A stretch of DNA of 64,000 nt. It comes from Syncephalis fuscata. Lineage: Eukaryota > Zoopagomycota > Zoopagomycetes > Zoopagales > Piptocephalidaceae. A program made the translations under genes and the position numbers. The stretch is taken from contig JAHLTZ010000036.1 in assembly GCA_025786725.1 (NCBI GenBank), forward strand, positions 62,001 through 126,000, written 5' to 3'. The notes below the pieces were generated by a model. It saw only the letters and a list, made by a program, of their open reading frames with translations, was not told where the DNA came from and did not search any database. Of this stretch, positions 15,927 through 60,809 are shown piece by piece (position 1 is the first letter of the stretch; the number at the start of each line of letters is the position of its first letter).

Positions 15927-17023
15927 ATTAAAAATGGCTATTAGAATTAAAGCTCCACTTAATGAGTAAAAATCAATTAAATGAATCAATTGATAGTCGG
16001 TAATAATAATAATGATAAAGTTCAAGCCAAGAACAAATGTCAGTCTTTTGGTTATCGTCTGCTCTAAATAAACCAGCGTCGAGTAGGAAATCAAATAGGC
16101 AAGGCTGTTATAGACTGGCAATAAAGCCTTCTAAAGTATATCACGTGTACTGACTGAATAGCAGTATATAGTAAAGCAATAATGTAGAAATGGATTGGTG
16201 TAATAATAAGGAGCAATAGAAAGAAGACAACATGGCAATTTATTGCCTTATACTTTTGTTTGGCATGCGTGTTATATTTAGGCCATTCAAGGATTACCAG
16301 TAATCAGCAGGTAAGTTTATACCTTTACTGTGATGCATAAACCGGTTACAATCAATGAACGTGACTATTATGCAGTAGTCTTGGCAATATTATGGCTTGT
16401 ATTTGCCACTCATCACTGGGTAATCATTAAGCCAAAACGGCACATGTTTTATGTTTAATGACGCGAAACAAAGTCGGAAAACAATCTTGTTTATTGAGCC
16501 ATACGTACTTATTGGATTGGATACCTCATATAGCAGTGTAGATATAATTGTAATGAACTATAATGTTGCTATAAAAACAATAGCAGCTATAAGCATATAA
16601 AAGTGTGCAAAACATGAGTTAAATACATTTAGATACTATTTATTAATAATAAAACTAGCTAGGTGTATAGCTTTTTTTTAAATAATTGGTAATTAAGACT
16701 TGGAATACGGTTAAAAACGTGCAATTATAGATTTTGTGCGTGGAAATAAATTAATAATTTATAATTACCAAATACGGTAATGATAATGTATTAATATTTA
16801 AAATTATTGCTGCCATAAAACGGCTGATGTGTATATGAATAATAATACAGCTGATGTTTTAACTGACTAATTAAAAAACATAGTTTTGCTCATGACAATA
16901 TGAATATTAGTATTGACTGTGTCTCTAAATTATAAATCTATAAACAATAAGAATAATATTATATCGAGTTTAAGATTTTATTGAGCTATTTACTATATAC
17001 AATGTGTTAGATATATGAGCTAT
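15927..17023. other. Intergenic region between Kch1-like A and B, with a paralog relic
   Basis: No intact gene is present. A short plus-strand frame (MAIYCLILLFGM, from about 16231) ends quickly before a GTAAGT and is not convincing. Segments 16430-16510 and 16801-16856 resemble the 3' flank and the last codons of gene C (see the separate relic entry). Confidence 0.55.
16430..16856 (-). pseudogene. Relic of a fifth Kch1-like copy (3' end only)
   Basis: On the minus strand 16856-16801 reads LYYYSYTHQPFYGSNNF. It aligns residue for residue with the last residues of gene C (PYSSSTHRPPYGGGNF). The segment 16430-16510 matches the 3' flank of gene C at 21003-21080 (shared words CATGTTTTA, GTTTAATGAC, GAAA/CAAAGT, TTGAG/AGC). 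Nothing upstream of the tail can be aligned by eye. The simplest reading is a truncated, decayed copy left by tandem duplication, with about 290 bp inserted between the two matching parts. Confidence 0.6.
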
Positions 17024-18801: not shown

Positions 18802-21082
18802 ATTGGCAATCACTGATACGACTTAATTTGAGTTATGGAATACAAATGGATTGAGTGAATGAGTTGATTGTTAATAGAATTAGGTTAAGACGAAAGATAA
18901 ATAAAGGTTTTTGCTTATCAATCGTTCTAAATAGATATCGAGTAGAACTTTAAACAAGTAAAGTAGCTATGTAGTAGTAGCACACTTTGATAGAGTGTAA
19001 CGCGTGTTAGTTAGACAGTAGTATTTAACAACGAGAGTAGTAGTAATGAGAAGAATAATACGGATAAAAATACATCACCTTACAAGATGACATTATATAG
19101 CGTTGCAGGGCACGCATACCGCTTCTAGACTATTCATGGGTATCTACAAAAGCAAGCAAGTTAGCTCATGCCTTTACTACAAATGCATGTACAACATGTT
19201 TTCAATAGAAAAGTGTAACAATGTGTAAAATAGCTGCAGCAATGTATGAAATACTTTCAACTACACTACACATGTTTGTTATCGTCAATGGCTAACTACT
19301 GGTTGCACAAAAATAAAACTATGCTTAATGTTAGGCGTATTCTTGTAAAAACATAACTATAATATTGGGCTGGTAACAATATCACTAAGAAATGCACCAT
19401 GGATTAGACAGTATGTTAAAGTCATATGTGAACAGTTACAGGGATAATGCATATAATGGATGTCAGCGCTAATTACAAAGAACAAAGAACCACATAAGGA
19501 TATAGCCAATAAATAATTGCTAACTGTGGACATATGCACAGTCACCTGAGCTGATATGCTGCATCATGCTGAAATAGTACAAGGCATTCAGGTTCTATCG
19601 TTAGTCACCCTTACTGCAGAATAATAGCATTACTCAATATCAATGAAAACAACCAATTTTTAGTTCCATCTTATTTGTTTTTAGTACCATACAAAGTTAT
19701 CCAGTTTATTATATAGGAACTGTGCATTAAACAACCAATAGAAAATAAGTCTATTGTTAAAGCAATATTAACTAACTAGCATGTTGTATTCTGAGTGCTA
19801 TGGCAGGTATTAATGAATGCCAAAGGCCAACATTATACGATAGTGTCAAAATAACATGCTACTTGTTCATTTAGGCTGCATTCTTTAAAAGCATAATTAT
19901 AGCATTTATTTAGGCCAATAAATTATTGTCTCATCTTTTAAAATATGTGGTGCTATTCCATTACTTTATTGATGTGTTTTATAATATCAGTATTTGGTGC
20001 TAAGTGACTTTCTTCTTTTGGTATATTCACTAATATATTGAATATGTTCTATGATAATGAGTAGTTTTGGGGTAAAATAACTTTATTCTTAATGCATTAT
20101 TGCTTCACTTGTTGTCCTATGATGTACCAACATGTTGGGTAGATTGACTTTTATTATTTACACTCCATTTATTAATGAATTAAACTCACATCTTTATAAA
20201 TATTGACCGACAAACACCTTCTACACTATATCCTTCCATTGCTTTTTTCACAAATCACTTTTATCACTCTAATTATTGGTATTAGCAGCTTCTTTAGCAT
20301 GGTAAGTGCATTTCTGGCTTGTTTTTATGCTATTTGAGCATATTCTGTGATATTCTCATTGTATGCTTTGTTTTACTGTAGACCATTACAAGTTGTGCTA
20401 ATAACATTATTATGATATCAATAGTAGTAGACCGCACTGTTGTATGGGCATAATTGCAAACACAATAACTGTATTGTCTATATTAATTGCTACTTTTTTA
20501 GAGATATATTAATGTATAGCAATACAGAATAGAATAAAAATGATATATATGTACTGAGTGTATGCATACTGGATAATGAATTTATGATGACGAGTATTTG
20601 ATGATTGATGTCACTCACCACCCATCATCACGTTCAATAGATTGGATGTTATTAACAGTAGTCATTTAACCACCAAGTAAACAATAAATGTGATGATGCA
20701 ATGATTAAATAAAACTCACCACTTGTTCCCATGTTCAATAGAACAAAAATGTAGTTCAACTACGCGAATGTTATTAAAAATAGCCATTTGGCCCTCAAAT
20801 CATATTAAATAGTCAAAAAAATCTAGGTACAAAATATATACGGCTGGTTATTGTGTGTCTATTAAACTATTTACGACAATGGAGCTTGTTAGTTGTAGCG
20901 ACAATTACATTTTGGTACTTTACAAATGACTACAGCTTTCATTAATAATCAATAATAAACCTTTTATATTAATCATCTGGCATTGACTAGCTATTGATTG
21001 TACCAAAACAGGCATATGTTTTAAGTTTAATGACATGAAATAAAGTAAAGAAGAAATATGATTCATTGAAGCATAGTAGCAT
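18802..21082. other. Intergenic region between Kch1-like B and C
   Basis: No gene is supported in 2.3 kb of AT-rich sequence. Segment 20060-20180 is about 100 bp similar to 24230-24340 on the other side of gene C. A copy of a dispersed repeat lies at about 20570-20800. Confidence 0.55.
20570..20800 (+). repeat. Dispersed repeat family copy (near full length)
   Basis: It begins near TATGCATACTGGATAATGAA and runs through TATTTGATGATTGATGTCAC, TTCAATAGATTGGATGTTAT and ATGATTAAATAAAACTCACC to CTACGCGAATGTTATT. Similar copies or pieces occur at 41362-41575 (reverse), 41875-42085, 44850-44965, 27815-27910 (reverse) and elsewhere. It carries no coding sequence; two internal blocks (ACTCACCAC...TTCAATAG) resemble each other. 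Confidence 0.7.
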
Positions 21083-23150
21083 CTAAAAATTGCCGCCGCC
21101 ATAAGGTGGTCGATGTGTAGATGAAGAATACGGCTGTTGTTGCTGATGTGGCTGTGGCTGTCGCGGCATAGGCTGCGCGTTACCACGATTGCCATTACCA
21201 TAGTTGCGTTGTGGTCGGCCACGTGTACCGTACCGGCTTGAAGCACCATCATCATCGCTTTCATCGCCATAATTGCTACGATTGTCGCCCTGGTGGTGCG
21301 GTCGGCCACCATATCGTCCTGATCCCATAGAAGAGACACTGCCAGTGGGGGAGGCCGGTCGACGTGGCGGCAGCATTGCATAAGCTTCATTTGTTGGGGT
21401 GTGATTAGGACCGTTGCCATATCGGTTTTGCAGACCAGATGGTGTTTGCGGTGCATTATAGTGGTGATTATTGTGCTGGTGGGCCAATCGGCTATCTCCA
21501 CCATAGTTAGATCCAGCATCCGATCCACCAAAGTCACTACGTGCATAAGGTGCTCGTGGTGGTCCACCATAACGAGATGTATCGATGGGTGGTGGTATAT
21601 GGTGTGGTGGTGGTGGTGGGCGATGATTGGGCCCGCCACGATGACTGCCGGCGTATTCACTGCCACCATAATCACTTCGACCATCGTCGTAACCATTGCC
21701 GGCTGGTCCATTAGGTGGATATGGTCGTCCTGGACGATCGCGTGCTCCACTGTAATCGCTACGCGTATCGTCATAATCGTTGGTATGATTATTATGACCA
21801 AAACGGCTTGGTTCAGCGTGCATAGGTGGTGCACGTTGATAGTTTTGTTGTTGTTGGCCATATCCTGCTGCTCGTCCATATGGATCTTGGTTTACAGGCA
21901 TAGGTGGCATTGGATGTGCCGAGGCATAGTTGGGATCCTGATGTACCAAGGGCTGTCGTGATACAGATGAATAAGTAGTACTTACGGATTCAATACTAGG
22001 TCGACGATACACGGCGGGAGCAGGACGTTTATCTGCAAATTTATTGGTCGTAGAAGGATTTGGTCGTACCATTGCTGAAATAGGACGGGAGTTATTGTCC
22101 ACAGCGTTCAATGTAGGCAAAGTAGGCTGACGTCCGGCGACAGCGGTAATAGCGGCCTTGCTAGTCACATCTTTGCCTTGAGCTCGAAGCATTTCCTCTT
22201 GAATACGACGTTGATCACGCTGTTGTTCCAAGATGCGTTTACGCGATTTACGCAATAGCAAATTAGCAATACTAAATTGTTGAATTAGTATTTGATACAT
22301 ATGCTACACTAAAGTATTACTTACCGCTTATCTATCTTATGACAAACATATTCTTTCAAATTGCCTCTAATGTTGCACAGCAGTGGCACATACAAAAAAC
22401 ATGCTATGACCGTGAACACGGCTGTGATGCACCAGAGTGCAAACGAAAAGGTAGACGTAAAGAACGATGTACGCAATCTTACATCTTGAGGACTTGTAGG
22501 ACGAAACACTGCCCAATCAATACCATGGCCACCCTTGGTAGCAGTGGCCCATATATTAATGGCATTAAGTACTTGACGTGGAGCGTCAGCCAACAACATA
22601 CGTTTCCAGCCTATATTCCACCGTTTGTTATTAGTGTTATTCATAACAAGTGGACTATTGATAGTTACTTACCTTTTAATGTAAAGTAGACGAAATAGGC
22701 AATGCGATCTTTAAGGGATTGCGTAACACCAATTTGTGAGAAAAAGCAGTAATGTGAATAGGACCGAATGCTGTAGAAACGAAAAGCGGCGATATTTGTA
22801 TACGCATAGGCAATATCCCGACTAGCAATAATTCGTCTGGCCTTCTTTCCTTCCCATAGCAGTAATATAAATGATACAGCAATAGAGGCAAGATAAAGCC
22901 AACGTCGTATGTCTAACGGAATCAAGATATCCTTTTCCTTAGACATGCCGTCTGATTTAATCAGCAGATAAGCGGTCCATATATCGGCGCAGTACATTAA
23001 TATTGCCTTAATAACGACAAGAAAAATAAAGCAATAGGTAATTCGTCGGATAGGAGAAGAATCGTAAAATACTTTAACGTCTACAAAATCGAATTTGTGA
23101 TCCTGGACAACTTCACGCTTCCATTTTGCGGTGGAGCAACAGCAACCCAT
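21083..23150 (-). CDS. Kch1-like plasma membrane protein, paralog C
   Basis: Exons 23150-22673, 22610-22325 and 22271-21083 sum to 1953 nt, 650 aa, without frame problems. The start ATG gives MGCCCSTAKWKREVVQDHKF. A glycine at position 2 followed by three cysteines is the kind of N-terminus that is often myristoylated and/or palmitoylated, although this is inference. The core shows DHKFDFVD, SRDIAYAYTNIAAFRFY, LLADAPRQVLNAINIWA (the family motif closest to yeast Kch1) and RGNLKEYVCHKIDKR. The tail of about 400 residues is rich in Pro, Gly, Asn, Tyr and Arg (RYGG/YGGGD-type repeats) and is predicted to be disordered. It ends PPYGGGNF. The GC content of the tail is clearly above that of its surroundings. 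Confidence 0.88.
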
Positions 23151-25880
23151 GTTGTTAAATAGTGCTGCCACCTAAGTGTTAAATATAATAGTAGCAAGTC
23201 GTGCAACGGCCGTCAATACTAGTATAATATGTATGAGCGGTGATTGAAAACCGTTTTATCTACTGCGCCAAGTACAGGTAGATATTGTTTATCTATCGAA
23301 GTTTAAAGATAAATTGTTGTTTGTTGTTGTTATTATTGCTATGGTCGATATTGCTATCACTGCTATTAATGCTGTTAGCTGTTATTATGCTTTTTAATTC
23401 AGATGACAGCAAGTATAGTATTTAATGCAGTCTATGAACCAATGAATAGCTCAAAAGTATCCTGCAATATCGAAGATAAAAATAAGTTCAATTCTGAACG
23501 AGAAGATAAAGGAGAAAGAAGTATGCTAGTGCGCCTTACGGAACCAAGCCGAGGCCCAAGCAGAAAAAATGCGATATAAAAAGAATACTACCACTGTTAC
23601 TGCGAATACACAGGTGAACTTGATTTATCTGCCAAGCATGCCTAAGTACTTGTGTACATCTGCTGCAATGATGAGAACAGTAGCGGTAAGGTTAGTAAAG
23701 ATAGCTGTGATAGTTGGAGTAGCGGAATGTACGAGAGAAGAGATAAACCGCTGAAACAAAAGTAACGAGATGAGTATCCTCGGCGATAAAGAGGCGACAC
23801 TTTTTGAAGAAAGGAGATGATAGAAAGAATGTTCCAAAAATAGTAGCCAAGAGATGTCAATTGCTAAATGTGTTAGGCCAATGCATGAGTGATTGAGTTT
23901 GTCAATTCTAGATTTGATGGATTCTATTAAACTATTGCTTTATAGATACTGTGTTGCATCAGCTCTGAGCAGTTATCTACAAGCTTATACTGGTCAATAC
24001 GCAATAAATCTATGTTTTATACGCACTTGTGTTTATGATAATGATACCGAGTTTAGAAATGAATTGATTGTATTACATTTGTCCCGTTGCCCTACACATA
24101 AATCTATAAATACGACTAATAATAGATACCATTTAAACAGGTAGATCATTGCCTCAGTTGTCGAAATGCACCTAGACTATTTCATTAATATATCACTAAT
24201 ACTATATTTTACAATCGTATTATTTGCTGTTAAATGACTTTTATCCTTAATACGTTGGTTATCCAACTATCAATCTGTTCTATGATATACCGACATGTTG
24301 GGGAACTGGCTTTTATTATTTACACTCCGCTTATTAGCTTATTAGTATTTTATCTCACGCCTTTACCATCTCTTAATTGCACAGCTTACAGTTTACATGC
24401 TATTTTTAATCTTTATTTTATTTTATACAATATTTATTTATTAAACCCTTTTCGCACTTTATTTATGCTGCTAATAAATACTAAATATTCTAATTTGCTA
24501 TAGATTATTATTGCAGATCATAATGGTGGCAGTTTGTGTAGTTTCGACAATAGCAAGTCACATTGCTGTACCGTTATTGAAGATTCGTATCGATAATTGA
24601 ATTAAAATGACCATAGTCATATATAGATAATTTCCAAAATAGTGACTACGGTAACTATATTGCTATTATTTCCTTACCAATTACTTTTCTTTTTCTCTTT
24701 GCTTTATTTCACCATTTAAATAGCCTTATATATTGGTATTAATCTATGGCGTATAAGAGTGTTAATCAAACAACGCTGCGCCAATCTTAGTCACTGGGCT
24801 GTCTTTTCTAATTTGGCATTGTATTGGATATTAATTATCGTTAATGACTATTAGTTGAGTGCTTTTTGGTTATATGTACTATCGATCTAAATTTCAAATA
24901 TACACTGCTATTCGAGATTTGTAGCCATGGATGTTTCTATTGTACATACTAGAGATATTCATAACTTTTACATAACATATTAGTATAGCTAACAATAATG
25001 GTGCAAATGTGTTAATGATGAAAGGCTAATAAAACACAGAAAAGCATATAACCAAATGAATGAACAAAAAAAGAATGCATGAATAATAATAATGTAATTA
25101 TAGTATACAAAACCAAGTGAATACTATGAGCGTAATAAATCGACATTTGTAACAATACAGCTGGCAATAAATAAACACTTTTACTACTTTTGCTTAACCA
25201 ACATACGATAAAACGATAAAACGTAAAGTAATCAGTATAATAAATTTGTTATCCTATACATATATATTTTTAACGTTATATAACCGTACAAGTTTAAATC
25301 TATTGGTGAGGCTATATCCATAAAAGGACTATGGATAAATCGGTCATCATCAAATGAATGATTTCTACGTTATTTTATGGTAGTGATGCTTTATCATAGT
25401 AACTACTAATCAAGTACAATGACGATATAAAAAAGAATCTCCAATGCATATAAATGGTATTGTCATTACCTAGTTGTGTTATAAATCGCATTTTTATGAT
25501 GGATAAACTGATTGGCCTCTAACATGTGATAATGGGATAAACTAAAGGACATCATACGATATTATATTGCTCGTGGTCTTTGTTCACACCATTATACGAA
25601 CTATATATTGCTCTGCACGCGCGTTTTGTTTCGCTCATGCCTAACCAGCTTCTTCTCCTTTCTAATCTTCCTCTCTTAACAAGCTTGCTTATTTCATTTC
25701 AATACTTGTATTGTCAAATTGCTACCTGCAGCTAACTGCATACCACATTTCCTTATTTTTCTATAAGCTTTAGTTGCGTGTGCGTTGATAATCACCCTGC
25801 CTACAGCCTTGTTACTCACCTTTATTCTTTATCTTTTTCTACAAACAAAGTAGCAAACATCTGCGGAAACAGTGTTCATC
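23151..25880. other. Intergenic region between Kch1-like C and the lipase
   Basis: No gene can be supported in 2.7 kb. A frame at 24234-24503 is hydrophobic and AT-driven, and it overlaps a block that is repeated at 20060-20180, so I do not call it. Pyrimidine-rich sequence at 25660-25850 precedes the lipase start and probably belongs to its promoter/5' UTR. Confidence 0.55.
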
Positions 25881-42201: not shown

Positions 42202-44451
42202 TTATGCATGATCCTTTCTTCGCTTTTTACGTTGGTTATTTTTCTTGTCATCATCATCATCGCATAGACCATGACCAAATTTAGCAGTCATAATTTGATT
42301 AATCTCCTGCGTATCTTTGTTAAATTTCCGACTTTTACGTAAACGTTGACGACGATCACGCTCCTGTTCGCGTCGTGCCTCTTCGCGTGCCTCTAAATCA
42401 CGCTCTTCTTTATTTGGCCAAAATTGCGATGAATCAGTCTGGTCTATAGCATTACTATGACTACGTGTAAAACTGTCGTTATCATCATCTTCGTTATTAT
42501 AGGTATTTTTTGTTGATTTCATTGGTGCAAAGCCGGCAAGCATATCAAGTGTATGATCTGCATCTTCTACTATATTTTGTCGCTCTTGATGCATTTCTGC
42601 TGCTGCTGCCGCGGCTAATCGAGATTTTGCCGTCCAATGCTGACTACTACCATTGCCAATGTCGTCATCATTGACACCTAGACCAAAGGTATCGTAGTCA
42701 ATAGCGTCACGATCTGTCACGTCAAATCCAAGTTGTTTCGTCGGCTTAGAGGCCAGTTTACGTTTTAGTGCGCTAATTGGTGCTTGCCCACTGTTAGTCG
42801 TACTATTTTGTAATCCTTGTGTTGCTTGTTGCAATATTGTATTCACAAAATCAGTTGATTGTTTAGTATTCATTGGTATATTTGTAGATATATCATCATC
42901 GTCATCCTTGTCAAAATAACGTGTCCTTGGTTGTTTCTCAATAGATATTTGTTGATGTGATTCAATAACTGGTCCTAGCTCTGGTCCTAGCTCTGGTCCT
43001 AGCTCTGGTCCTAGCTCTGGTCCTAGCTCTGGTCCTAGTTCTGGTCCTAGCTCTGGTCCTAGCTCTGGTCCTAGTTCTGGTCCTAGTTCTGGTCCTAGTT
43101 CTTTATCTAAAATAAAATCCATGCTTTCAAGAGCTGTAGCTCCAGTTACATTATCTTTAATATCTTCAGATACATCATCTTCATCTATAATACATTCATA
43201 ATCACGTCCTACATCTGCAAAAATATCTTCATCGTCATCGTCACCATCATTCAGCTGTAATGCATTTAGCGTTGATGTTACATTTGGCTCTAGCTTTTCT
43301 TTTATAACTGATACAGTAGATGATAATGTTTTAGGCGCTGTTCGTAATGATGATGGTTCTACTCGAGTTCCTGTACGAATATCTTCAATAATACCGCATA
43401 TTTTACTAATTACAAGATCGTTGGCAGCAGATCCTGATCCACGCATGCCAACTTGTCCTTCGCCTTTACTACGAATAACTGCCGTAGGAATATTCCATGC
43501 ATCGCCTGCCTTTCTACTGCCATCTGATCGTGTTTCATCAAGTTGAAATGTATATGCCATACGTCCATATCGAAATAGCTCGTTCAATTGTAGTGTAGGT
43601 GGTTGCTTTAAGCTTGAAACGGCAATGGCATGAATATTCCGCGCTAATCCCGTACGAATCTTCATTTCATCTTGGCTACTCGTTTGAATGTCGGCAACTT
43701 TACTCGCTACTTTTTGTGGTGTCGACCGAATTGTTCTATTATCATCCTGTGTATCATCCTGTTTAATCTCGCGACGGCGTTTATCAAGTAGCGAATAATC
43801 AAGTCCTTTAACTAAATGCGTATGTGACACATCACCGCCTAGCAATTTAAATCGTTCTTCCATTTCCTGGCGTGCCAAACGCTCGCTCGTCTCAGCATCC
43901 TGTGTTTCGTGGTGCAAATCCGCAAGTAATTGCTGATTATCACTCGCCAAATTGGCAAGAATACGCTCTGATTCAGCATAGTCTGGATTAATACCTTCTC
44001 GGCGTTCTTTTGCACGATCACGATATTTTGCAGATGATAAAGTCTCGTTGTCGTCGTCAATATCATTATTGCGCGGCTTTCTATTCTTATTGTATTACTT
44101 TACACTATTTGACAGATCATCTTTCTATTTACCTTGATCGTGGCCGCGGTCTAGCAAATTCGCCCTTGGTTTCCGCTATTGTTCTATTAATACAATTAAT
44201 AGATTAGACAAGTGTTTCTATTACTATCAAGTAGATAGCTTTTATACTTACTTATCAAATGCAATTGATTTCTTAGCAGGTCGAGCAGATTGTTGCTGTT
44301 CTAGTTCAGTTTCTATCGTGCTTGATTGCGACGAATGCGGACGAGGAGTCTGCATCAATCGTCGAAAGTCATCTTGTGTCAATCTATATAGCAGTTAGAA
44401 TAGTTGTAAAAACCAACTGCTATTGAATAGTTACCCTGAATTGTCAGCCAT
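42202..44451 (-). CDS. RED/IK-like spliceosomal protein
   Basis: RED (IK) is a component of the activated B-complex spliceosome, where it partners with Smu1. Exons 44451-44435, 44383-44252, 44183-44133 and 44080-42202 join to 2079 nt, 692 aa, in frame. The N-terminus starts MADNSGLTQDDFRRLMQ. The RED core is clear: KYRDRAKERREGINPDYAE, then FKLLGGDVSHTHLVKGLDYS and LLDKRRREI. Family conservation is weaker after this. An ELGP tetrapeptide repeated 11 times in a row (12-bp DNA unit, about 42971-43102) sits in an acidic middle region. The C-terminus is an Arg/Glu-rich segment with EARREQERDRRQRLRKSRK and a basic end, as is usual for RED. The first coding exon is only 17 nt long. Confidence 0.93.
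42971..43102 (-). repeat. 12-bp minisatellite encoding 11 ELGP units in RED
   Basis: Eleven near-identical copies of a 12-bp unit (plus-strand GGTCCTAGCTCT, with GTTCT variants) lie in frame inside the RED coding sequence. The only differences seen are C/T changes at a synonymous position. Confidence 0.95.
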
Positions 44452-49176: not shown

Positions 49177-49799
49177 ATGCCTTCGCTATTCCGTTACTTG
49201 ACCGCCACTCTAGTGATTTCCTATGCCGGCATAGGATTTAGCGCGCCAGCATCAATGTTCAACAATATGAACACCGCATCTGGGTCCGGCTTAACTGATC
49301 CATTCTCGCAGACTGACATGGGTGGTTCATTTAGGCATAGTTCAACTGATCCATTTTCAAGAACTAGCACAGGTGGTTCATTTGGGCTTAATCCAACCGA
49401 CCCATTCTCGCAGACTGGCATGAATTCATTCGGGCTTAATCCAACCGACCCGTTCTCGCAGACTGGCATGAATTCATTCGGGTCCAATTCAGCTAGCCCA
49501 TTCCCGCAGACTGGCATGAATTCATTCGGGCTCAATCCAACCGACCCGTTCTCGCAGACTGGCATGAATTCGTTCGGATCCAATTCAGCTAGCCCATTCC
49601 CGCAGCTAGCATGATTGGTTCGCCAGTTCGGCAAAATAACAGAATAAACACCCAAAACATTCTAAGCTCTTTAGGCCAATCCAACTCGGGCTCATCAGAA
49701 GCAGCTATGAAATCAAAACAAAACGTGGAACTGCTTAGAGACCATTATCAACGTCAAGCGGAATTAAGACAGAATGTGCGGTCAAATCAGCGCTTCTAG
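49177..49799 (+). CDS. Secreted protein with 16-residue Ser/Asn/Phe repeats (one frameshift)
   Basis: I do not recognise the family. The start at ATG 49177 gives MPSLFRYLTATLVISYAGIG, a classical signal peptide that would be cut near FSAPA. The body is made of tandem 16-residue units of the type SFGLNPTDPFSQTGMN alternating with SFGSNSASPFPQTGMN (48-bp DNA unit, about 49318-49605); the first units are degenerate. The frame then breaks near 49604, where CCGCAGCTAGCATG should by repeat homology read CCGCAGACTAGCATG. The continuing frame adds MIGSPVRQNNRINTQ and a polar, glutamine-rich tail ending SNQRF. With one base restored the length is 207 aa. There are no cysteines. It lies next to another repetitive secreted protein and could be a cell-wall or matrix component, but this is a guess. 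Confidence 0.7.
49318..49605 (+). repeat. 48-bp tandem coding repeat
   Basis: About six 48-bp units encode the 16-residue repeats of the secreted protein. The last four are highly similar at DNA level and alternate between two types, which suggests duplication of a two-unit block. Confidence 0.85.
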
Positions 49800-50338: not shown

Positions 50339-51004
50339 ATGATAAAAGTGGTATGGGGTTCAGTGTTAGTGTTGGTACTTTTACATGCCAACACCAATCA
50401 TGCCTCTCCTGTACCTAATCCATTATATGGTAACATGTACCCAGGCTCAATGGGCAACATGTTCGGCAATATGGACAGCATGTATGATAATATGGGTGAA
50501 AGTTTTTATAACCCAAACAACCAGTTTAACGGCAATATCGATGGAGGAATAGGAAAACGTCAACAAGCATTGAAAGATGCAAAAAAAGAACATAACGTCT
50601 CTTTTACCGCCGAAGAAATGTTAAAGGCGGCTTCTGGTGATTCAAAAGATCAGCAAAAACAACAGGAACAAATGGCGGGCCAAGGAATAGCAGCAATGAT
50701 GTTACAAAAGCAACAAAATTTGCAATATTCTATGGGTGGTATGAACGGTATGAACGGTATGAATACTATGGGCAATACGAACATTATGAGTGGCACGGCG
50801 AATGGAGCACCAACTAATAGAGCAAGCATAAGCAGCTTTCTTGTCAATCCTGCTGGCTTATCAAATGGTCAATCCAGTACCATGGAGACTAACATCAACG
50901 GAAGCGGATTTGGTAATGCTGGAACAAATTCAAACATGATGGGTGGCTCTAATATGATGGGCGGCTCTAACATGATGGGTGGCTCTAACATGATGGCGCT
51001 CTAA
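50339..51004 (+). CDS. Secreted Met/Asn/Gly-rich protein
   Basis: Family unknown. The ATG at 50339 gives MIKVVWGSVLVLVLLHANTN, a signal peptide with a likely cut after HAS; an upstream in-frame extension is not conserved-looking. The mature protein has an N-terminal region rich in Met, Asn and Gly (GNMYPGSMGNMFGNMDSMYD) and a dibasic GKRQQ site that a Kex2-like protease could cut. A charged, possibly helical stretch (QQALKDAKKEHNVSFTAEEM) follows, then Gln-rich and Met-Gly-Asn repeats, including GGMNGMNGMN and three GGSNMM units at the end. The annotated stop comes right after the last repeat. If two G residues were lost there, the frame would run on to a stop at 51039-51041 (NVMGSFIGTNDY). 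There are no cysteines. Its role is unknown. Confidence 0.65.
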   Translation: MIKVVWGSVLVLVLLHANTNHASPVPNPLYGNMYPGSMGNMFGNMDSMYDNMGESFYNPNNQFNGNIDGGIGKRQQALKDAKKEHNVSFTAEEMLKAASGDSKDQQKQQEQMAGQGIAAMMLQKQQNLQYSMGGMNGMNGMNTMGNTNIMSGTANGAPTNRASISSFLVNPAGLSNGQSSTMETNINGSGFGNAGTNSNMMGGSNMMGGSNMMGGSNMMAL

Positions 51005-52101
51005 TGTAATGGGCAGCTTTATTGGAACAAATGACTACTAAATAGCACTAACAGCCATATTACTACTACCACAATGGCTGCAATAACTTCAAAGCTGCTA
51101 AGAATACAAAATTTTAGCGCTAAGAACAATGAAACAGTCTAGAAACAGATATAGTTACAATGATTGGCTTTATGACTAATTTCAGTATTATCGTTTTATC
51201 GACATTATGATCAAGAACAATAGAAACAAAGTCTTGACATTTACGTTAAACAAAAAATTAGTAAAAAAACCAATAAAAATAAGTAATGTTGTTTACGCTT
51301 TAATAAACAACTATATAGCTACCAGCTATTGATTGGTACTTAACAACAGTTTAAAATGTAGACTATATGTAATTGTTGAATAAATACGCTACTGTTGAAT
51401 ATGTTAATTTCATCATTACGTGTTACACGATCATATCACGCGACCAGGCCATACAACAACAATGCCAGTTCTTGTAATTATTTATAGCCATTACAATGAC
51501 AATGACACCAACACCTGCAGACTATCTGATCGGTGCATTCCTTTGTTACAAGCACTAACAACAACATGTTGACCAGTATTGTCTTCTTTATTCCTTCAAC
51601 TCTTTGATCTTTTGTACCCTTGTTATTTTTGTCGTGGATACAACGTGCTAGGCAACCTAAAGCGCAATCTACATGCCTCATATATCTAGTAAGATTAATG
51701 TCACACGATAAAGTGGCCTTGTTTTGTTGTGTCTATTGCTAAACGCTGCCCCGTCCATCTTTCTAAGGTCCTTTCCCATTTCTATCAATTTGCACACACA
51801 CACATTTATGATACTATGCCAATTACTATCGCAAGTTAAAAAAAGTAACATTTTTCTCCGCCTGCTGAGCTGACTGTCAAGTAAATAGTGCCCTGCCAAT
51901 ACGCACTCTTTCATTTACTCACTCACTCACTCACTCACTCACACATCTATACTCGTCATTCTCCTTTTGCCATTTAACATCATCGACCCTTTCACTGAAT
52001 AGTGCTCTTCTTTCACTGACTATAGCTTATTTAATATATTTAATAGTAATATTAATTGGTTTTGAATTGCCACCTAGCAATACTCATTACTTGCGGCCAG
52101 T
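51005..52101. other. Intergenic region upstream of Kch1-like D
   Basis: No gene is supported. A CACT-type tetranucleotide repeat occupies about 51916-51942 in the likely promoter of gene D, and pyrimidine-rich sequence follows it. Confidence 0.55.
51916..51942. repeat. CACT tetranucleotide repeat
   Basis: About six to seven CACT units in the likely promoter of Kch1-like gene D. Confidence 0.9.
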
Positions 52102-54290
52102 ATGTGCTGCACTACAGCAAAATGGAAACGTGAAGAAGTGCCAGATCACAAATTTGACTATATCGATGTCAATGATTTTTTCAACGGCTCTATTATCCGT
52201 CGTTTCACATACCTATTATTATTTGCGGTTATTATTAAGAATATTCTTGTCTATTTGGCCGATTTATGGACAGTCTATCTATTATTTACATCTCAAGAGT
52301 GGGCAGCTAATATTCAGTCACTGAAAAGCCATTTAGACATCATTAAATGGATTTTCTTTGCTTCTATCGTCTCTTCCTTTCTTTTATTACTATGGGAGTT
52401 GCGTAAAGCGGTCCGAGTGGTTAAAAGCCATGATATTGCTTATTCGTATACTTGTACTGGTGCATATCGCTTTTATAGCGTTCGATCCTATCCGCATTAT
52501 TGTCTTTTCTCGCAAATCAATAACTCGCGAAAAAAGATTGACCGAGTAGCTTTCTTTGTCTACTTTACACTCAAGGGTAAGTTGATTAATTCGGATATTC
52601 TGGTATATAGCGATATTTAATGCTGCAAACAGGATGGAAACGGTTTTTATTGGCAGAAGCACCACGTCAAGTGGTTAATGGCATTTCACTTTTCTCAGTA
52701 TATATTGGTAAAAAGGGATTTGATATTAAAAAATTTTACGAGAATGGTGAAACAGCTCAGGCTCGTATTATGTTTGGCCTTATGACATTTACGTTTTGTG
52801 TTTGGGCCATATCTGCGTTACTCTTAGCATTTGCAGCTATTTTATATGTACCATTGTTGTGTCAGATTCGCGGTAATCTTAAGGAATACGTTTGTCATAA
52901 GATTGACAAGCGACTAGCACAACTATTGCGTAATAAATCTCGTAAACGTATTTTGGAGGAACGACGTGAACAACAACGACTAGCTCAAGAGATGCAATCA
53001 CTTCCAGGTGCTAATACTGGTGCTTTGTTGCCTTCTCGTGAACCAACCTTACCTCAAGTACAATTATTGGAATCTAGCACTAGACAGCCAATGCCTCCAA
53101 CTAGTCAGAATGCCGTAATGATATTACCTGACAATAGGCCGCCACCATTGCCGCATTCCAATGCACCAATGAGTTATCAACAACAACAACAACAGCAACA
53201 GCAACATCATCATCGGCCATCGTATAGTATATCCAATAGCCAATATAGTGCTGGTAATCAATACTCAAATGAAGCCACTAGCCAATATAGTGGACGTCGA
53301 CGGGCTGATAGTACTGTGTCGTCCACTTCTGGCTACAGTCAATCACGTCCTATTCAAGGTGCAGATGGTATTAACTATGGCGGTGCCAGACCTCCTATGC
53401 CGCCTATACCACCGCATCATGTCAATTCAAGGCAGCAACCTATACCACCACCATCTCAACGCCCTACTCATTTGTACAACGGCAATAACCATAATGAAGG
53501 TGATCATATTCCTCAGGGATATCGATATGAAAAAGAATTGAGTTCGCCACTATCTGATAATACTTATGATATACCAGATAACGTATCCGAATCAAGCCAT
53601 CGATATGCAAATCAACCCATGGATGACACTGGTAATCGTCCATTACCAAGACCGCCACAGTCTTCTAGTTCTAATTATTCAAAGTCACAGCCTGTACCAC
53701 CACAATCCTCGTCATCTGCTCATTCAAATAAATCACCAACACAGCCATCAGCTGGAGCTGCAAATCCCAATCGCTATCCATATCAGAACATATATGATCA
53801 TCCACCACGAAATGAAGCAGAAGAGCCTTCCAGTATGGCACAGCCATTACAAGGGCATATTCGACACTTTTCCAATGAAGGACATCGTTATGCTTCGTCG
53901 GCTACCGCTTCTAGTGTTCAGAATACATCTCATTATCCGCCTATGAATCGACCGACAGAAATTCGACATCAAATGGCCAATCATCCAGCAGAACACAACT
54001 TTGTCCGTGAAGATAATAGTGTTATGGGAGATATGGATGGTGGTGAAGAAGAAGATAATGATGATGAACCAACGATTAATCGGTATAATAATCGTGGTAG
54101 ATATGCTGGTCGTCATAATTATCAACAACAACAACAGCAGCAGCAGCAACGGCCACCTCAATCACAAGGTTCACAACATTCTAATATGCGTTATCCACCT
54201 CAAGGTGGTCCTTCATCACAAGCACCGCATCAGCTAAGACGTCCTGGTAACAGTCAAAATAGTCATCAAGGAGGCAACGTTTATTTCTAA
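52102..54290 (+). CDS. Kch1-like plasma membrane protein, paralog D
   Basis: This dispersed fourth member of the family has only two exons, 52102-52576 and 52633-54290, giving 2133 nt, 710 aa. It starts MCCTTAKWKREEVPDHKFDY, with two cysteines directly after the initiator. The membrane core ends with FLLAEAPRQVVNGISLFSVY and RGNLKEYVCHKIDKRLAQLL. Intron 1 is at the same place as in copies A-C, but the second intron (after KIDKR) is absent. The tail of about 400 residues is disordered: poly-Gln/His runs, many Pro, Ser, Asn and Tyr, an acidic patch (DMDGGEEEDNDDE) and a second Gln run. It ends HQGGNVYF. A few segments (SRKRILEERREQQR) are close to gene C, so C and D look like the nearest pair. 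Confidence 0.9.
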
Positions 54291-56261: not shown

Positions 56262-58833
56262 TCAAATGATCTTGATTCTTGCCGAATGCATATCTAAAAT
56301 ATATCTAGCTTGCAGGCTAATTATACTAACAATGCCGCTGTCTTGACTGCACCGGTTAGTCTATAATCATACATAAATATATAAAATATTATGTGTTAAC
56401 ATATAAATTAGCATTATATAATGCCACTTACTACCTATCAATAAAAGTCATCAAACACAAAGTGCATGGTATATATTTAGCGCATAGTAAGTTAATATAC
56501 AATATTACTTACCAGCTATTAATACAAGTCATCAAACACACAAAGTGCATGATATGTATTTAGTGCATGGTCAATCAATATACAATGTCACTTACCAGCT
56601 ATTAATATAAGTTATCAAACACACAAAGTGCACGGTACATATTTAGCGCATATTCAGTTAATATACAGTACTACTTACGAGCTGTTAATACAAGTTATCA
56701 AAAACGCAAAGTGCACAGTATATATTTAGCGCATAGTAAGTTAATATACAGTACTACTTACGAGCTGTTAATACAAGTTATCAAAAACGCAAAGTGCACG
56801 GTATATATTTAGCGCATAGTAAGCTAATATACAGTACTACTTACGAGCTGTTAATACAAGTTATCAAAAACGCAAAGTGCACGGTACGTATTTAGCGCAT
56901 ATTCAGTTAATATACAGTACTACTTACTGGCTGTTAATACAAGTAATCAAGCACGTAAAGTGCACGGTACGTATTTAGCGCATATTCAGTTAATATACAG
57001 TACTACTTACAAACTATTAATACAAGTAATCAAGCACGTAAAGTGCACGGTACGTATTTAGCGCATATTCAGTTAATATACAGTACTACTTACTGGCTGT
57101 TAATACAAGTTATCAAAAACGCAAAGTGCACGGTACGTATTTAGCGCATATTCAGTTAATATACAGTACTACTTACTGGCTGTTAATACAAGTTATCAAA
57201 AACGCAAAGTGCACGGTACGTATTTAGCGCATATTCAGTTAATATACAGTACTACTTACGAACTATTAATACAAGTAATCAAGCACGTAAAGTGTATGAT
57301 GTGTATTTAGCGCATATTCAGTTAATATACAGTACTACTTACTGGCTGTTAATACAAGTTATCAAAAACGCAAAGTGCACGGTACGTATTTAGCGCATAT
57401 TCAGTTAATATACAGTACTACTTACGAACTATTAATACAAGTAATCAAGCACGTAAAGTGCATGATATGTATTTAGCGCATAGTCAGTTAATATACAGTA
57501 CTACTTACGAGCTATTAATACAAGTCAGCAAACACACAAAGTGCATGGTATGTATTTAGCGCATAGTAAGTTAATATATAGTGCCACTTACTGGCTGTTA
57601 ATACAAGTAATCAAGCACGCAAAGTGCATGGTATGTATTTAGCGCATAGTCAGTTAATATAGAATACTAGGGGGACGTTGCTAGCCCAGTTGGTAAGGCT
57701 CCGGGTTCAAACCTCAGTTTGAACCAATCCTTAAGTGGAAAATCCCCCCCCCAGTTTTCTCTAGTTAACAAATTGCAAACCAGAACCCAATAAGTAGGTC
57801 CGGAAACAAGACCTTGGCCAGAATAGTCGAGGAAAACTCAATTGGGACCAACTTCAAGAGAATAGTGCTGTGTAGCACCATTTAAAAGAAGATGGCCCCC
57901 GTGTAAAATCTATATGGACCAGATTTTGCGCAAAAACGTGGCAGTCCACCCGTTAAAAGTTTGGAAAAGTCCAAATATAGTGGGAAGCAGCGCAAATTCT
58001 TCAATTATGCGCAGCGGGGGCTCACAAGCTCTTCAAAATAAAATAAAATAATATAGAATACTACTTACGAGCTGTTAATACAGGTTATCAAACAAGCAAA
58101 GTGCATGGTATGTATTTAGCGCATAGTCAGCTAATATATAGTACTACTTACTGGCTGTTAATACAAGTCATCAAACACACAAAGTGCACAGTATATATTT
58201 AGCGCATAGTAAACTAATATACAGTACTACTTACGAACTATTGATACAAGTTATCAAACACACAAAGTGCACATTATATATTTAGCGCATAGTCAATCAA
58301 TATAAAATGCCACTTACGACCTATTAATACAAGTCATTAAATACGCAAAGTGCATGTTATATATTTAGCGTATAGTCAATTAGTATAAAATGCCACTTAC
58401 TAGCTGTTAATACAAGTTATTGAACATGCAGAATGCATGGTATATATTTAGCGCATGATCAGTTAATATACAATGTTACTTACTTTCTATTAGTATAGAT
58501 ACAGAATATCAGTATCAGCAATATATTTTATATTATTTTACATTAAAAACAACGATCAGTTATTATGCCAATAGCTATGTGCAATCAACACTTACCTTAT
58601 ATTGGCCATGTCCATTATTTGGATGACATACGGTAAGTGCTGGAACAATGAGTCGATAATCACAACTTACCGGCTAATACCATCGTTGGTTGAACATAGT
58701 GTTAGTAAACATATCAAATCTATTACAACTACAACATACCACGACGGACTTGGTTTGGATTAGCATCCACCATAGTTGTACTGGCTACAAAGGCCACGGC
58801 GAGGGTGCAGACGACGGCAATAGAAAGCTTCAT
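56262..58833 (-). CDS. Small secreted protein gene with a putative 3-nt microexon array
   Basis: Family unknown. Exon 1 (58833-58740) encodes MKLSIAVVCTLAVAFVASTT followed by MVDANPNQVRR: a signal peptide and the start of the mature protein. Exon 2 (58639-58596) adds ALTVCHPNNGHGQYK and ends in phase 0 at an AAG|GTAAGT donor. Downstream come 21 tandem units in which an AATAG/AACAG acceptor and the next GTAAGT donor are separated by exactly three bases, at 58486-58484 down to 56434-56432. A candidate last exon starts after ATTATAG at 56360 and reads TNRCSQDSGIV in phase 0, with a stop at 56262; if a GTTAGT donor inside it is used, the stop is at 56195. Full inclusion would give about 100 aa, with a 21-residue Leu/Pro/Phe/Val centre. 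If the triplets are skipped, one 2.2 kb intron joins exon 2 to the last exon in the same frame. Exons 1 and 2 are well supported; the rest is inference. Confidence 0.5.
57655..57669. repeat. Target-site duplication, left copy
   Basis: TAATATAGAATACTA precedes the GGGGGACG start of the inserted element. The same 15 bases follow its tail at 58049-58063. Confidence 0.92.
57670..58048 (+). mobile_element. tRNA-derived SINE-like retroelement
   Basis: This 379-bp insert interrupts one unit of the 83-bp array. It starts GGGGGACGTTGC and contains a pol III box A-like TAGCCCAGTTGG and a box B-like GGGTTCAAACC, although the spacing between the boxes is shorter than in a tRNA. The body is more GC-rich than the array. 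It ends in a simple tail of three AAAATA-type units and is flanked by 15-bp direct repeats. Removing 394 bp restores the exact 83-bp period. It lies in the opposite orientation to the host gene. No second copy is visible in the window. Confidence 0.85.
58049..58063. repeat. Target-site duplication, right copy
   Basis: TAATATAGAATACTA, identical to 57655-57669, directly after the A/T tail of the SINE-like element. Confidence 0.92.
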
Positions 58834-60809
58834 GGTGAGATTGATTTGTTAAGACAAATAAGTAGAATGAACGATAGAGTGTAGTGGTATAAAGTAGGTA
58901 GTAGTAGGTATTTGGCAGAAAGTAGAATATGATGCTGATACTGCTAGTTAGTTGTGTGTATTTTGTAGGCTATTTAAGTCTATGCTTATGCTGCGATATC
59001 AATATGCTATGTTGTATAAACCATGCCATTGATGTGCGATGTAAACCAATAACAATACATCCACGTGATAGTTTAAGGAATACGTATACCAACACATCGA
59101 CAATGTGATAGCATGCTGCCCCGCCTTTACTTCAATTTGTTCAGCAATTACACAATGATGTGGCAATACAAATGATTCAGCACACATGCGGTAGAAATAC
59201 ACCAATTGATGTGTACGGTTTTGTTACACAATTGAACTATGTGGTGTAAACTGAATCTACTGGTTTTAAAAAACAGTGACAGTGCATCGTTGTGCCTTTA
59301 CCATCACTTTCACTGACAATTTTAATTACCAATATTTGCATGCATTTCAGACAGTGCTTATGGATGCAACAGTAACATTAATACACCAACTATATACTTC
59401 TTTACATATAGCTATTGTTGTGCATAAACTAGCTGTAGCTTTTCGTGTCATGGGAATATACCGTTTGTTCGTATATGCATTCAATTCTACACTGGGCTTA
59501 ATTACAAAAATAAGCATTCTTTTTTCAACATGATGCTACTAAATACCGATAAAGATCCCGCGGATATTCGTGAATTGTTTTTATTATCGATTTATGTTAA
59601 TTATATACATATTTCATAATAAGATATTGTATTTAGTCACTAAAAGTGTCAATTGTTTGCTTTTAAGGTGGCGTGAACTGTCTAAATGATATGTAGTTAT
59701 ATGTGCAAATATTGGGATTATGCCTATAAATCTACTCCGTTTACATATACTCAATCTTGATTGTGCAACAGCAGTGCATGCTACAGCAGGCAGAGGCATT
59801 AATGTCATGCAAATGATTTGCGCAACAATAGCTTGATTAGAATAACAGATTTACAATTTGAAATTTGTACTAAATGTTACGCATTTTGGATCATGTTTCT
59901 GCACTCTGTAATTCAAAGCCAATGACGTATTGCGTAAATTATGTCCAATTCAGCGACATTATTCACTGATCATAATGTTTGTCGTTTGTTTTTTTCATAC
60001 CTTCACACATTAGCTATTATTTCCTAAATAGCATGGAAATAAGCAATATTCAAATGCAGCTTAGCTATTTATTTACTATTATATTGTATATCGTCATACG
60101 TAATAGCTGTAGCCATTGAGTGGTATCGATAACTAATGGCTAGTCATTAAACCTACTGCTTATTATTGACACTAAATTATGTTTATTGCTTTTTTTCTAC
60201 GCCTGGATGCATACTTGCTTATTTAATAATAAAATCTACTCATGCATATTACATTGTCATGAGTTGGATTAATAATCTGATTGTTTACTGGTTCTTAAAA
60301 GACATATGATATTTCTATCTTCATATATACAGGCAAAATAAGCTATATTAAATCATATCTGTTAATCATATAACATATTGTGTGCCATTTAGTACTATAT
60401 ACGTATGTTTTTATGAACAGTTTATTAACTATTTAGTATGATGCGGTAGTTAAATAACTATCTTTGCTCAGTTGAAGCAAATATTTGTTCTATTGCTCAT
60501 GGAACTGAGTGGTAAATGACAGCAATCATCTACTAATTTATATAGCATGGAACAGTTATAATGAATCCCCAATTAAATAGGTTAATTCAAGTCTTTTTCT
60601 AACAGGAATCCGGATTTGTTGAGTCATTAATTAATGCGTCGTCATCACTAACAAGCAGTAACCTATTACTCATCTTTTGATCGTTTACCAGCTGGCCATC
60701 ACCACGCAGCTGATATTTGTTTACTCATCGGTTCTACCATCTATTAGCACTACCTCTATTGATCTATCGATACTAGCGCCAGTAGTGTTATACTTGATCG
60801 TCTATTATC
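58834..60809. other. Divergent intergenic region, microexon-array gene / SEM1
   Basis: No gene is supported in about 2 kb. A TATAAAG-like sequence at about 58890 (reading TTTATA on the minus strand) lies some 55 bp upstream of the secreted-protein start and may be a TATA box. The frame at 59276-59533 lacks recognisable features. A short piece of the dispersed repeat (CATGGAACTGAGTGGTAAAT) occurs near 60500. Confidence 0.5.

Follow-up and report, generated by a model that had tools for sequence, protein, structure and literature searches.

The window analyzed here, a 64,000-nt stretch of the genome of Syncephalis fuscata, carries a minus-strand array gene (58833-56356) in which a 94-nt first exon is followed by a run of predicted 3-nt exons. 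Relatives of S. fuscata live on other fungi. The array is real: as the original prediction had it, 21 minus-strand units each carry a GTAAGT donor, with exactly 3 nt from acceptor to next donor. The acceptor, expected to be AATAG or AACAG in every unit, is AAYAG in 20 units and TGATAG in the last, and the supposedly uniform length of 83 bp holds for most units, with one unit of 81 bp and one of 477 bp that contains a SINE-like insertion. One further 3-nt exon, CCG (58673-58671), precedes the 21-unit array. The parts of the gene are as follows, with all 3-nt exons placed by frame-blind splice decoding.

58834..59333, minus strand: upstream flank, comprising promoter region and 5' UTR; alignments within the 500 nt show relatedness across the family
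58740..58833, minus strand: exon 1, predicted signal peptide, dibasic site MKLSIAVVCTLAVAFVASTTMVDANPNQVRR and first base of the next codon; 94 nt, ends in phase 1, donor GTATGT; supported by 150 scored relatives in the genome
58671..58673, minus strand: 3-nt exon CCG
58595..58596, minus strand: zero-length junction ATAAG/GTAAGT, from comparison with paralog L040 and decoding
58484..58486, minus strand: 3-nt exon AAA, unit 1
58401..58403, minus strand: 3-nt exon CTA, unit 2
58318..58320, minus strand: 3-nt exon GTC, unit 3
58235..58237, minus strand: 3-nt exon TTC, unit 4
58152..58154, minus strand: 3-nt exon CCA, unit 5
58069..58071, minus strand: 3-nt exon CTC, unit 6, followed by a 474-nt intron
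57669..58048, minus strand: SINE-like insertion inside the intron after unit 6, from a target-site duplication and similar copies elsewhere
57592..57594, minus strand: 3-nt exon CCA, unit 7
57509..57511, minus strand: 3-nt exon CTC, unit 8
57426..57428, minus strand: 3-nt exon TTC, unit 9
57343..57345, minus strand: 3-nt exon CCA, unit 10
57260..57262, minus strand: 3-nt exon TTC, unit 11
57177..57179, minus strand: 3-nt exon CCA, unit 12
57094..57096, minus strand: 3-nt exon CCA, unit 13
57011..57013, minus strand: 3-nt exon TTT, unit 14
56928..56930, minus strand: 3-nt exon CCA, unit 15
56845..56847, minus strand: 3-nt exon CTC, unit 16
56762..56764, minus strand: 3-nt exon CTC, unit 17
56679..56681, minus strand: 3-nt exon CTC, unit 18
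56596..56598, minus strand: 3-nt exon CTG, unit 19
56513..56515, minus strand: 3-nt exon CTG, unit 20
56432..56434, minus strand: 3-nt exon GTA, unit 21
56356..56360, minus strand: start of the last exon, AC plus the stop TAA (56358-56356), in frame with exon 1 by decoding
56262..56355, minus strand: 3' UTR, ending where the original prediction placed its end; its start resembles the post-stop sequence of intronless paralogs

The phase-0 entry that had been supposed for the array of 21 triplets (58486-56432) was not confirmed: exon 1 is 94 nt long and every 3-nt exon keeps phase 1; a second signal-peptide exon claimed at 58673-58596 contains in-frame stops when read. At the zero-length junction, L040 has a 3-nt exon (AG/ATG/GTAAGT), and the acceptor AG in the window has become AT. 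This site is either a recursive splice point or plain skipping, and the mRNA is identical under both. The last exon begins at 56360. Its TAA and the bases that follow are conserved in five of the intronless paralogs read, and the L053 version of this exon has matches at 40 scored places. After RR, the product of the window gene would be the predicted peptide AETSLPTPTLPIPTISTPPPAGN, then a stop. The phase-0 counts reported earlier (8 Leu, 6 Pro, 4 Phe, 2 Val, and 1 Lys) are correct, but the triplets are not codons; the hydrophobic set is a frame artefact, because codons are split one base and two across introns, and the phase-1 peptide is Pro/Thr rich.

The SINE-like insertion is flanked by a 14-bp target-site duplication, AGTATTCTATATTA, at 58062-58049 and 57668-57655, and similar copies occur in L052 (98%), in L051 (87%), and, in part, in L035. 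tRNA-like A and B boxes were seen in its reverse complement by eye alone, since ARAGORN reported no tRNA in the insertion.

The 3-nt spacing is far beyond chance. An intron followed by exactly 3 nt and GTAAGT occurs 2136 times genome-wide, versus 13 times for gaps of 1 to 2 nt and 17 times for gaps of 4 to 12 nt, in counts that take in duplicated segments and small redundant contigs; a reversed-pattern control over the whole genome gave 0 for 3 nt and 5 for each of the other two classes. Across L039-L058, 237 of the 243 gaps of 1 to 15 nt are 3 nt long. Relatives of the signal-peptide exon number 150 scored loci in the genome, and about 36 family loci are readable, some in part. Well-resolved loci are predicted to have 11 to 47 3-nt exons per gene, nearly all consecutive, such that most of the coding sequence would lie in consecutive, very short, symmetric exons. 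The array introns are similar to one another and mostly 70 to 84 nt long, and L042 is decoded with 49 introns in all.

As far as sequence can establish it, array introns are phase 1, and a codon consists of the last base of one 3-nt exon and the first two bases of the next, so that introns interrupt almost all codons of the mature peptide. In 22 loci with a run of at least 2 adjacent 3-nt exons (394 exons), phase-1 stops were found at 0 of 359 junctions, compared to a shuffled mean of 15.7 and a minimum of 6 in 2000 shuffles. Dropping 6 near-duplicates left a nonredundant set of 16 loci with 0 of 251 (8.6 expected). Genome-wide, phase-1 junction codons include 8 stops in 2566 strict junctions (TAA/TAG, 8; TGA, 0), versus 102 TAT/TAC and 433 TGC/TGT/TGG codons. 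Phase 2 was rejected on stop counts (31 of 359 junctions in the 22 loci; shuffled, 31). Stop absence alone fails to separate phase 1 from phase 0. The 0 phase-0 stops among 237 triplets, an apparent point for phase 0, were set aside as within composition. The proposal that a protein segment is built one codon per 3-nt exon is strongly supported, with 2136 strict instances in the genome, but its frame was wrong.

Frame-blind decoding never used the reading frame. In a first pass, which applied generic splice scores and anchored the last exon at the conserved TAA, 9 of the 18 complete loci gave a clean frame running from ATG to that TAA. Excluding L058, whose exon 1 carries a 1-nt lesion and which decodes cleanly only with a 43-nt exon, leaves 8. 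A second pass with looser skipping and exon costs, settings picked after the first-pass results were known, gave 11 of 18. The remaining loci (9 and 7, respectively) include some decoding errors and some 1-nt lesions (L050 and L058) or decayed splice sites (L045/L046); L045 came out clean in the second pass, in what looks like a fortuitous result. Since the conserved TAA served to choose the last-exon anchor, finding it in frame is a test of spliced length modulo 3. Training of the splice scores used sites next to 3-nt gaps, in loci that include the 22 of the stop sample. Decoding left out L038, L044, and L062, as well as the intronless or uninterrupted L032, L033, L036, L043, L059, L060, L061, L063, and L064; 6 truncated loci fell outside the 18, and L029 was never oriented.

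Intronless paralogs with related flanks encode similar peptides without interruption. Stretches of the 500 nt upstream align at ~66 to 83% between intronless and intron-bearing members, and the upstream flanks of L043 and the array-less L044 align at 99.4%. In the 6 arrays covered by a peptide-similarity test, phase-1 spliced peptides resembled the intronless paralogs (L053, z = 5.2; L054, z = 6.1; L042, z = 4.7; L030, L034, and L051, z = 2.7 to 3.0), while other frames reached a z of at most 1.8. L053 GAKECKECVKNC...ADYC aligns with intronless L064 GAQECEDCVHIC...ADWC at modest similarity, the stop of both lying within TAATCGATGG; the L053 phase-1 peptide also contains GAKECKECVKNCLNANSTDSKPTADYCWDKCRQSKCYS, which differs from the intronless members examined. 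When the spliced L053 peptide was searched against the genome (with no positive control), nothing matched, and no contiguous intronless copy of the L053 peptide or coding sequence was found. Base usage at four-fold third positions in the arrays (T,.57; C,.31; A,.08; G,.04; n = 124) comes close to that of the intronless paralogs (T,.54; C,.23; A,.13; G,.10; n = 149) and departs from that of two other frames in the window (T,.39; A,.37; n = 558). Exon 1 ends in RR in most loci read, with YR or loss in the L047 group, and a 15-nt exon in L042 and L051 adds AVAPLAKR, where intronless L043 carries AVEPLAKR; by sequence, a signal peptide and then Kex2-type dibasic sites precede the mature peptide. 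In a comparison of exon and flank divergence, exon nucleotides differed at 80 of 417 positions versus 163 of 3892 in flanks, a hint of diversifying selection that we do not claim, since unit mispairing and splice-site constraint could explain the difference.

The family is apparently restricted to S. fuscata or close kin. Profile searches of 5.77 billion proteins returned only S. fuscata matches with E values up to 1, and Pfam assigned no family above the cut-off to 7 family proteins. Protein database searches found 13 distinct annotated family proteins, compared to 150 scored loci, and none from the contig of the window. At the one array locus compared (L052), the public model P0126 leaves the 3-nt exons unused and annotates the array into an intron. 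Standard gene finding seems to miss array genes.

No precedent for arrays of single-codon exons was found in the part of the open-access literature covered. Schistosoma microexon genes (MEGs), as described in PMC10526429, encode secreted proteins of a parasite, are hard for automatic annotation, and comprise 35 genes with 10 to 20 short exons, mostly multiples of three and mostly 15 bp (range, 6 to 81 bp in the text and 3 to 81 bp in the abstract), and introns of 100 to almost 5000 bp. The S. fuscata genes share with them predicted secreted products and many very short exons in multiples of three but differ in their single-codon exon runs, ~80-nt copy-like introns, and 150 scored loci; the profile searches of 5.77 billion proteins showed no MEG homology. 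Aphid bicycle genes are fast-evolving putative effectors averaging ~17 exons, with many small internal exons that almost all start at codon position 2 (PMC9168663), as do the S. fuscata array exons (phase 1 throughout the arrays sampled). They are, however, insect genes, for which the accessible part of that source mentions no 3-nt exon runs between tandem intron copies, and the profile searches, which matched only S. fuscata proteins, showed no homology to bicycle proteins. In plants, isolated microexons of 1 to 15 nt, down to a single nucleotide, are spliced in and missed by annotation; on the part of the account available, these occur as singles or pairs in ordinary genes rather than tens in a row (PMC8831610). 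Introners and introner-like elements are near-identical introns multiplied in a genome and inserted into many genes, according to the sections available (PMC4457414 and PMC9860276); the S. fuscata introns are likewise copy-like and multiplied, but in tandem within one gene family.

We consider it very probable that the array gene family produces small secreted peptides by splicing in one residue per exon. Exon 1 would encode a signal peptide ending in a Kex2-like dibasic site, a run of 3-nt exons with phase-1 introns would encode the mature peptide, and the last exon would contribute two bases and TAA. The spliceosome would take out the introns successively by intron definition, probably 5' to 3', because an acceptor and the next donor are only 3 nt apart. 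The locked exon length, the phase, the purging of stops, and the similarity to intronless paralogs can each be read from the DNA, whereas we infer actual splicing, Kex2 cleavage, and secretion of the array peptides.

It is possible, if unlikely, that the arrays instead generate isoforms, a single gene yielding in-frame peptide libraries by including different subsets of its 3-nt exons; frame-preserving skipping, another option in the original prediction, is conceivable in principle. Donors are near-identical, any subset of exons keeps the frame because the 3-nt exons are symmetric (phase 1-1), and at L039/L041 and L047/L049 a natural change of the acceptor from AG to AT implies in-frame skipping. 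However, the purging of stops at nearest-neighbour junctions (0/359 versus 15.7 shuffled) points to selection on a constitutive order, and shuffled junctions, as would arise from skipping, do create stops. Somewhat less likely again is that the intronless genes are ancestral and that introns were later inserted into every codon in an introner-like manner. The array introns do look like mutual copies, and introner-like elements exist in fungi, as the accessible part of PMC4457414 reports, but dozens of insertions in one phase with exact 3-nt spacing would be needed, nhmmer found no array-type introns in other genes of the window (21 matches, all inside the array), and a single replacement of the array with cDNA explains the intronless forms.

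Removal of the whole array as one ~2.4-kb intron, an option that the original prediction put at 2.2 kb, would yield a signal peptide, RR, and one residue. Exon 1 and the last exon are indeed phase compatible (G/AC TAA, an open frame), yet this predicts unconstrained triplets, whereas the purging of phase-1 stops extends across the genome, exons keep a locked length of 3 nt, and it is in phase 1 alone that the array peptides look like those of intronless paralogs; we regard such removal as very improbable. Marginally less probable is a noncoding intron satellite, in which tandem intron copies abut with 3 nt by chance and the locus is no longer a gene; the introns do look like tandem copies of each other, and splice sites are broken or 1-nt lesions present at some loci, but stop purging, exon-like wobble composition, conservation of the terminal TAA, the relatedness of promoters, and the 9/18 or 11/18 loci with clean frames argue against it. 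Least credible is a phase-0 reading with each triplet as a whole codon, which finds few stops in the 22-locus sample (2/394 versus 5.3 expected) and, of the 11 loci that came out clean under looser decoding, leaves 9 free of internal stops, but was rejected mainly by the frame of exon 1 (94 nt, or 97 in some paralogs, ending in phase 1), the phase-1 TAA of the last exon, and the 6 arrays' lack of similarity to intronless paralogs in this frame, with a TGA exon in L053 and L054 also against it.

Under one-residue-per-exon splicing, arrays would grow and shrink by whole units (intron plus 3 nt), and gain or loss of a unit would therefore change the peptide in frame by a single residue. For the intronless members, the best explanation is that cDNA took the place of the array. 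More tentatively, and with somewhat less than an even chance in our estimation, the array may be a device for peptide evolution: with every codon forming a separate unit between introns, always in the same phase, exactly one residue would be added or removed, without a frameshift, by unequal exchange, duplication of a unit, or loss of one splice site, and reverse transcription would occasionally freeze a successful peptide as an intronless gene. The secreted arsenal would then diversify by moving introns, beyond point mutation alone, possibly aided by variable exon inclusion.

If one residue is indeed spliced in per exon, S. fuscata has a natural gene family whose intron density approaches the upper limit, with one intron per codon and a prediction of as many as 49 introns in the gene for a precursor of 84 residues. 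Such genes would offer a direct test of how the spliceosome copes, with very high fidelity, with dozens of successive acceptors and donors separated by 3 nt; by simple arithmetic, a 99% success rate for each of 47 exons leaves 62% of the mRNA full length. The design of the arrays also hints at how the gain or loss of single residues in frame could become routine, and similar families may lie hidden in other genomes. Considering the likeness to schistosome MEGs and aphid bicycle genes, why the secreted proteins of parasites evolve in this manner becomes a question testable in a small fungal genome.

The minus-strand array of 21 units reported in the original prediction stands, with a 3-nt gap in each unit, and on sequence grounds such microexon arrays are genome-wide and coding, in a phase other than the one first proposed. 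The window gene has the following parts.

58833-58740, minus strand: exon 1, encoding MKLSIAVVCTLAVAFVASTTMVDANPNQVRR, a signal peptide with a dibasic site at its end
Between exon 1 and the 21 units, minus strand: 3-nt exon CCG
21 array units, minus strand: GTAAGT...acceptor plus 3 nt each
From 56360, minus strand: last exon, beginning AC-TAA

A second exon previously placed at 58673-58596 was not upheld; the CCG exon follows exon 1. The frame is clean from ATG to TAA, and the decoded mature peptide is AETSLPTPTLPIPTISTPPPAGN. Units are spaced at 83 bp with two exceptions, one of 81 bp and one of 477 bp, and the intron of the latter carries a SINE-like insertion (57669-58048) flanked by a perfect 14-bp target-site duplication. 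Copies resembling it occur at L052 (98%), L051 (87%), and, in part, L035 (L-numbers denote loci with a relative of exon 1); the L052 and L051 copies have positions that fit the long array introns of those loci. Array introns seem to tolerate this element.

The pattern GTAAGT-N60..90-WAAYAG-NNN-GTAAGT occurred 2136 times (967 + 1169) in the 28.95-Mb assembly and 0 times in the reversed control, a count that, like that of exon 1 peptide relatives (150 scored out of 327 candidates), is a lower bound yet includes duplicated segments and small redundant contigs. With gaps of 1 to 2 nt the same pattern was found 13 times (control, 5), and with gaps of 4 to 12 nt, 17 times (control, 5). Across 20 loci (L039-L058), 237 of the 243 gaps of 1 to 15 nt were exactly 3 nt. 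Two arrays of 3-nt exons (G000 C19:4968-8206 and C24:514680-516643) have a higher-order period of ~313 bp, roughly four units, and would code for short tandem peptide repeats.

The proposal that each triplet is a whole codon (phase 0) did not hold. Exon 1 is 94 nt long (97 nt in some paralogs) and so ends one base into a codon, a phase that 3-nt exons preserve; codons are then made of the last base of one exon and the first two of the next (phase 1). Among 394 strictly defined 3-nt exons from 22 loci, with exon order shuffled within genes 2000 times, phase-1 junction codons included 0 stops in 359 (shuffled mean, 15.7; minimum, 6), and 0 in 251 versus 8.6 shuffled once near-duplicates were removed. 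Phase 2 had 31 stops in 359 (shuffled, 31.0). Phase 0 had 2 stops in 394, with 5.3 expected from composition, and stops alone therefore do not exclude it. Genome-wide, 2566 strict phase-1 junctions gave TAA/TAG 8 times, TGA 0 times, TAT/TAC 102 times, and TGC/TGT/TGG 433 times; of the eight TAA/TAG codons, four lie on contig C234 and two are a duplicate pair.

Intronless relatives, among them L043, L032, L033, L036, L063, and L064, have exon 1 as in array genes and then no intron. At L032, L033, L043, L063, and L064, the sequence that follows the stop codon TAA is homologous to the last exon in array genes, which fixes the array phase independently; at L036 the corresponding TAA is not in frame, and the reading stays open beyond it. 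With L064 as the query, 18 of the 150 scored members (L064 included) aligned stop-free to residue 59 or beyond. Compared with contiguous peptides under shuffled controls, phase-1 array peptides scored 60 for L053 to L064 (z = 5.2), 61 for L054 to intronless peptides (z = 6.1), and 44 for L042 to L043 (z = 4.7), with weaker likeness to intronless peptides for L030, L034, and L051 (z = 2.7 to 3.0). The other two frames of these six arrays reached a z of at most 1.8, and phase 0 was rejected on this contrast, on the phase-1 end of exon 1, and on the frame of the terminal TAA. At four-fold third positions, arrays lay near intronless paralogs, unlike two other frames of the window.

The two forms have stretches of the upstream 500 nt in common (L032/L034, 83% over 503 nt; L043/L057, 77% over 474 nt; L036/L053, 75% over 505 nt). 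The upstream flank of intronless L043 matches that of L044 at 99.4% over 500 nt; L044 (G000 C1:495942-503442), in which exon 1 and its donor are intact with no array after them, is apparently a truncated member. Because both flanks are related between the forms, the simplest history would be that cDNA of an array gene took the place of its array, a direction that we infer. The opposite order, intronless genes first and introns added later, is less simple, as it would need dozens of insertions, all at one phase and spacing.

A decoder that uses splice sites rather than frame, its sole fixed point being the conserved last exon, returned clean ATG-to-TAA frames at 9 of 18 complete loci, and at 11 of 18 once skipping of broken units was made cheaper. 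L058, among the 9, carries a 1-nt lesion within its exon 1, required a 43-nt exon, and was not clean under cheaper skipping; L045, among the 11, has decayed splice sites, and its clean frame may be fortuitous. A phase-0 reading was also without internal stops at 9 of these 11 loci. Clean loci included L040 (decoded mature peptide ADETPRPPRPAPPRPGN), L042 (49 predicted introns; AVAPLAKR-DPQRRSSNHSRGRGSSSSSVVGSGNAILGNAIGRPLARPGHGAKA), and L053 (36 predicted introns; GAKECKECVKNCLNANSTDSKPTADYCWDKCRQSKCYS). L054 was not clean, with a stop just one codon early, nor were L050 (2-nt exons) and L046 (decayed sites), and the decoder left L056, L057, and C1:475325 unresolved. L045, L046, L050, and L058, which have broken splice sites or 1-nt lesions, are likely decaying copies.

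Since a 3-nt exon can hardly accommodate both spliceosomal complexes together, introns would presumably be removed one at a time by intron definition. Per-column entropy in the GTAAGT core was 0 to 0.25 bits in L039 and L042 and up to 0.83 bits in L053; in the 3-nt exons of these three arrays it was 1.1 to 1.9 bits, and some intron columns just past the core were equally variable (position +7, 1.0 to 1.7 bits). In plants, exons down to 1 nt are spliced in, according to excerpts of PMC8831610. Compared with L040, both L039 and L041 have lost one acceptor (AG to AT), as have L047 and L049 compared with L048, and the frame stays intact in both cases; L053 has three more units than its close paralog L054, and their peptides differ by matching residues. 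Arrays thus vary in steps of whole residues, with no frameshift. One array gene is present on a single contig as two highly similar copies in inverted orientation (G000 C1:475325-477502 and C1:531726-534399), which differ in some units and read as a natural record of unit-level rearrangement.

Elsewhere in the window, a Sua5-type protein has its closest counterparts in Syncephalis pseudoplumigaleata (66%) and in S. plumigaleata (61%). Two tandem repeats, one of 48 bp and of the TDPFSQTGMNSFG type (49377-49614) and one of 18 bp encoding NMMGGS (50933-51004), lie in open frames whose proteins are apparently secreted, and a 12-bp tandem repeat encoding (ELGP)n at 42969-43102 lies inside a long open frame (42202-44094). 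Four related open frames (15447-16130, 18319-18822, 22665-23171, and 52078-52620) have in common a KWKRE-x-(I/V)-x-DHKFD motif, and each lies close to a long low-complexity frame.

By analogy, the nearest known kinds are the micro-exon genes of Schistosoma (PMC10526429, in excerpt) and the bicycle genes of aphids (PMC9168663, in excerpt), both secreted and with many tiny exons, the latter also with the same exon phase; profile searches found no homology of the S. fuscata family to either. In the open-licence PMC literature on single-codon or 3-nt exon arrays, fungal microexons, and Syncephalis, none of the matches listed describes arrays like those in the window gene in its title or in the opening of its abstract.

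Profile searches returned 13 distinct annotated family proteins, 0 of them from the window's contig. Of the public models, P0122 is identical to the uninterrupted frame of L063 and P0128 to that of L043; P0126, at the L052 array locus, runs into intron sequence after exon 1, and P0123 resembles it as a protein model. All 12 of 12 hits to a profile of the peptide family were S. fuscata proteins (BDF19DRAFT models). Other Syncephalis species gave no match in profile searches of the protein database, so either the family seems specific to this lineage or its members elsewhere have diverged too far to be picked up. No Pfam family reached the cut-off for seven family proteins tested. Several types of peptide follow the one conserved signal peptide and, at most loci, a dibasic site: some are Cys-rich and begin with CX2CX3C, others are rich in Pro/Thr or in Gly/Ser, and others are short and charged. 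The genus Syncephalis comprises mycoparasites, and a natural guess is that these peptides would be secreted factors against the fungal host.
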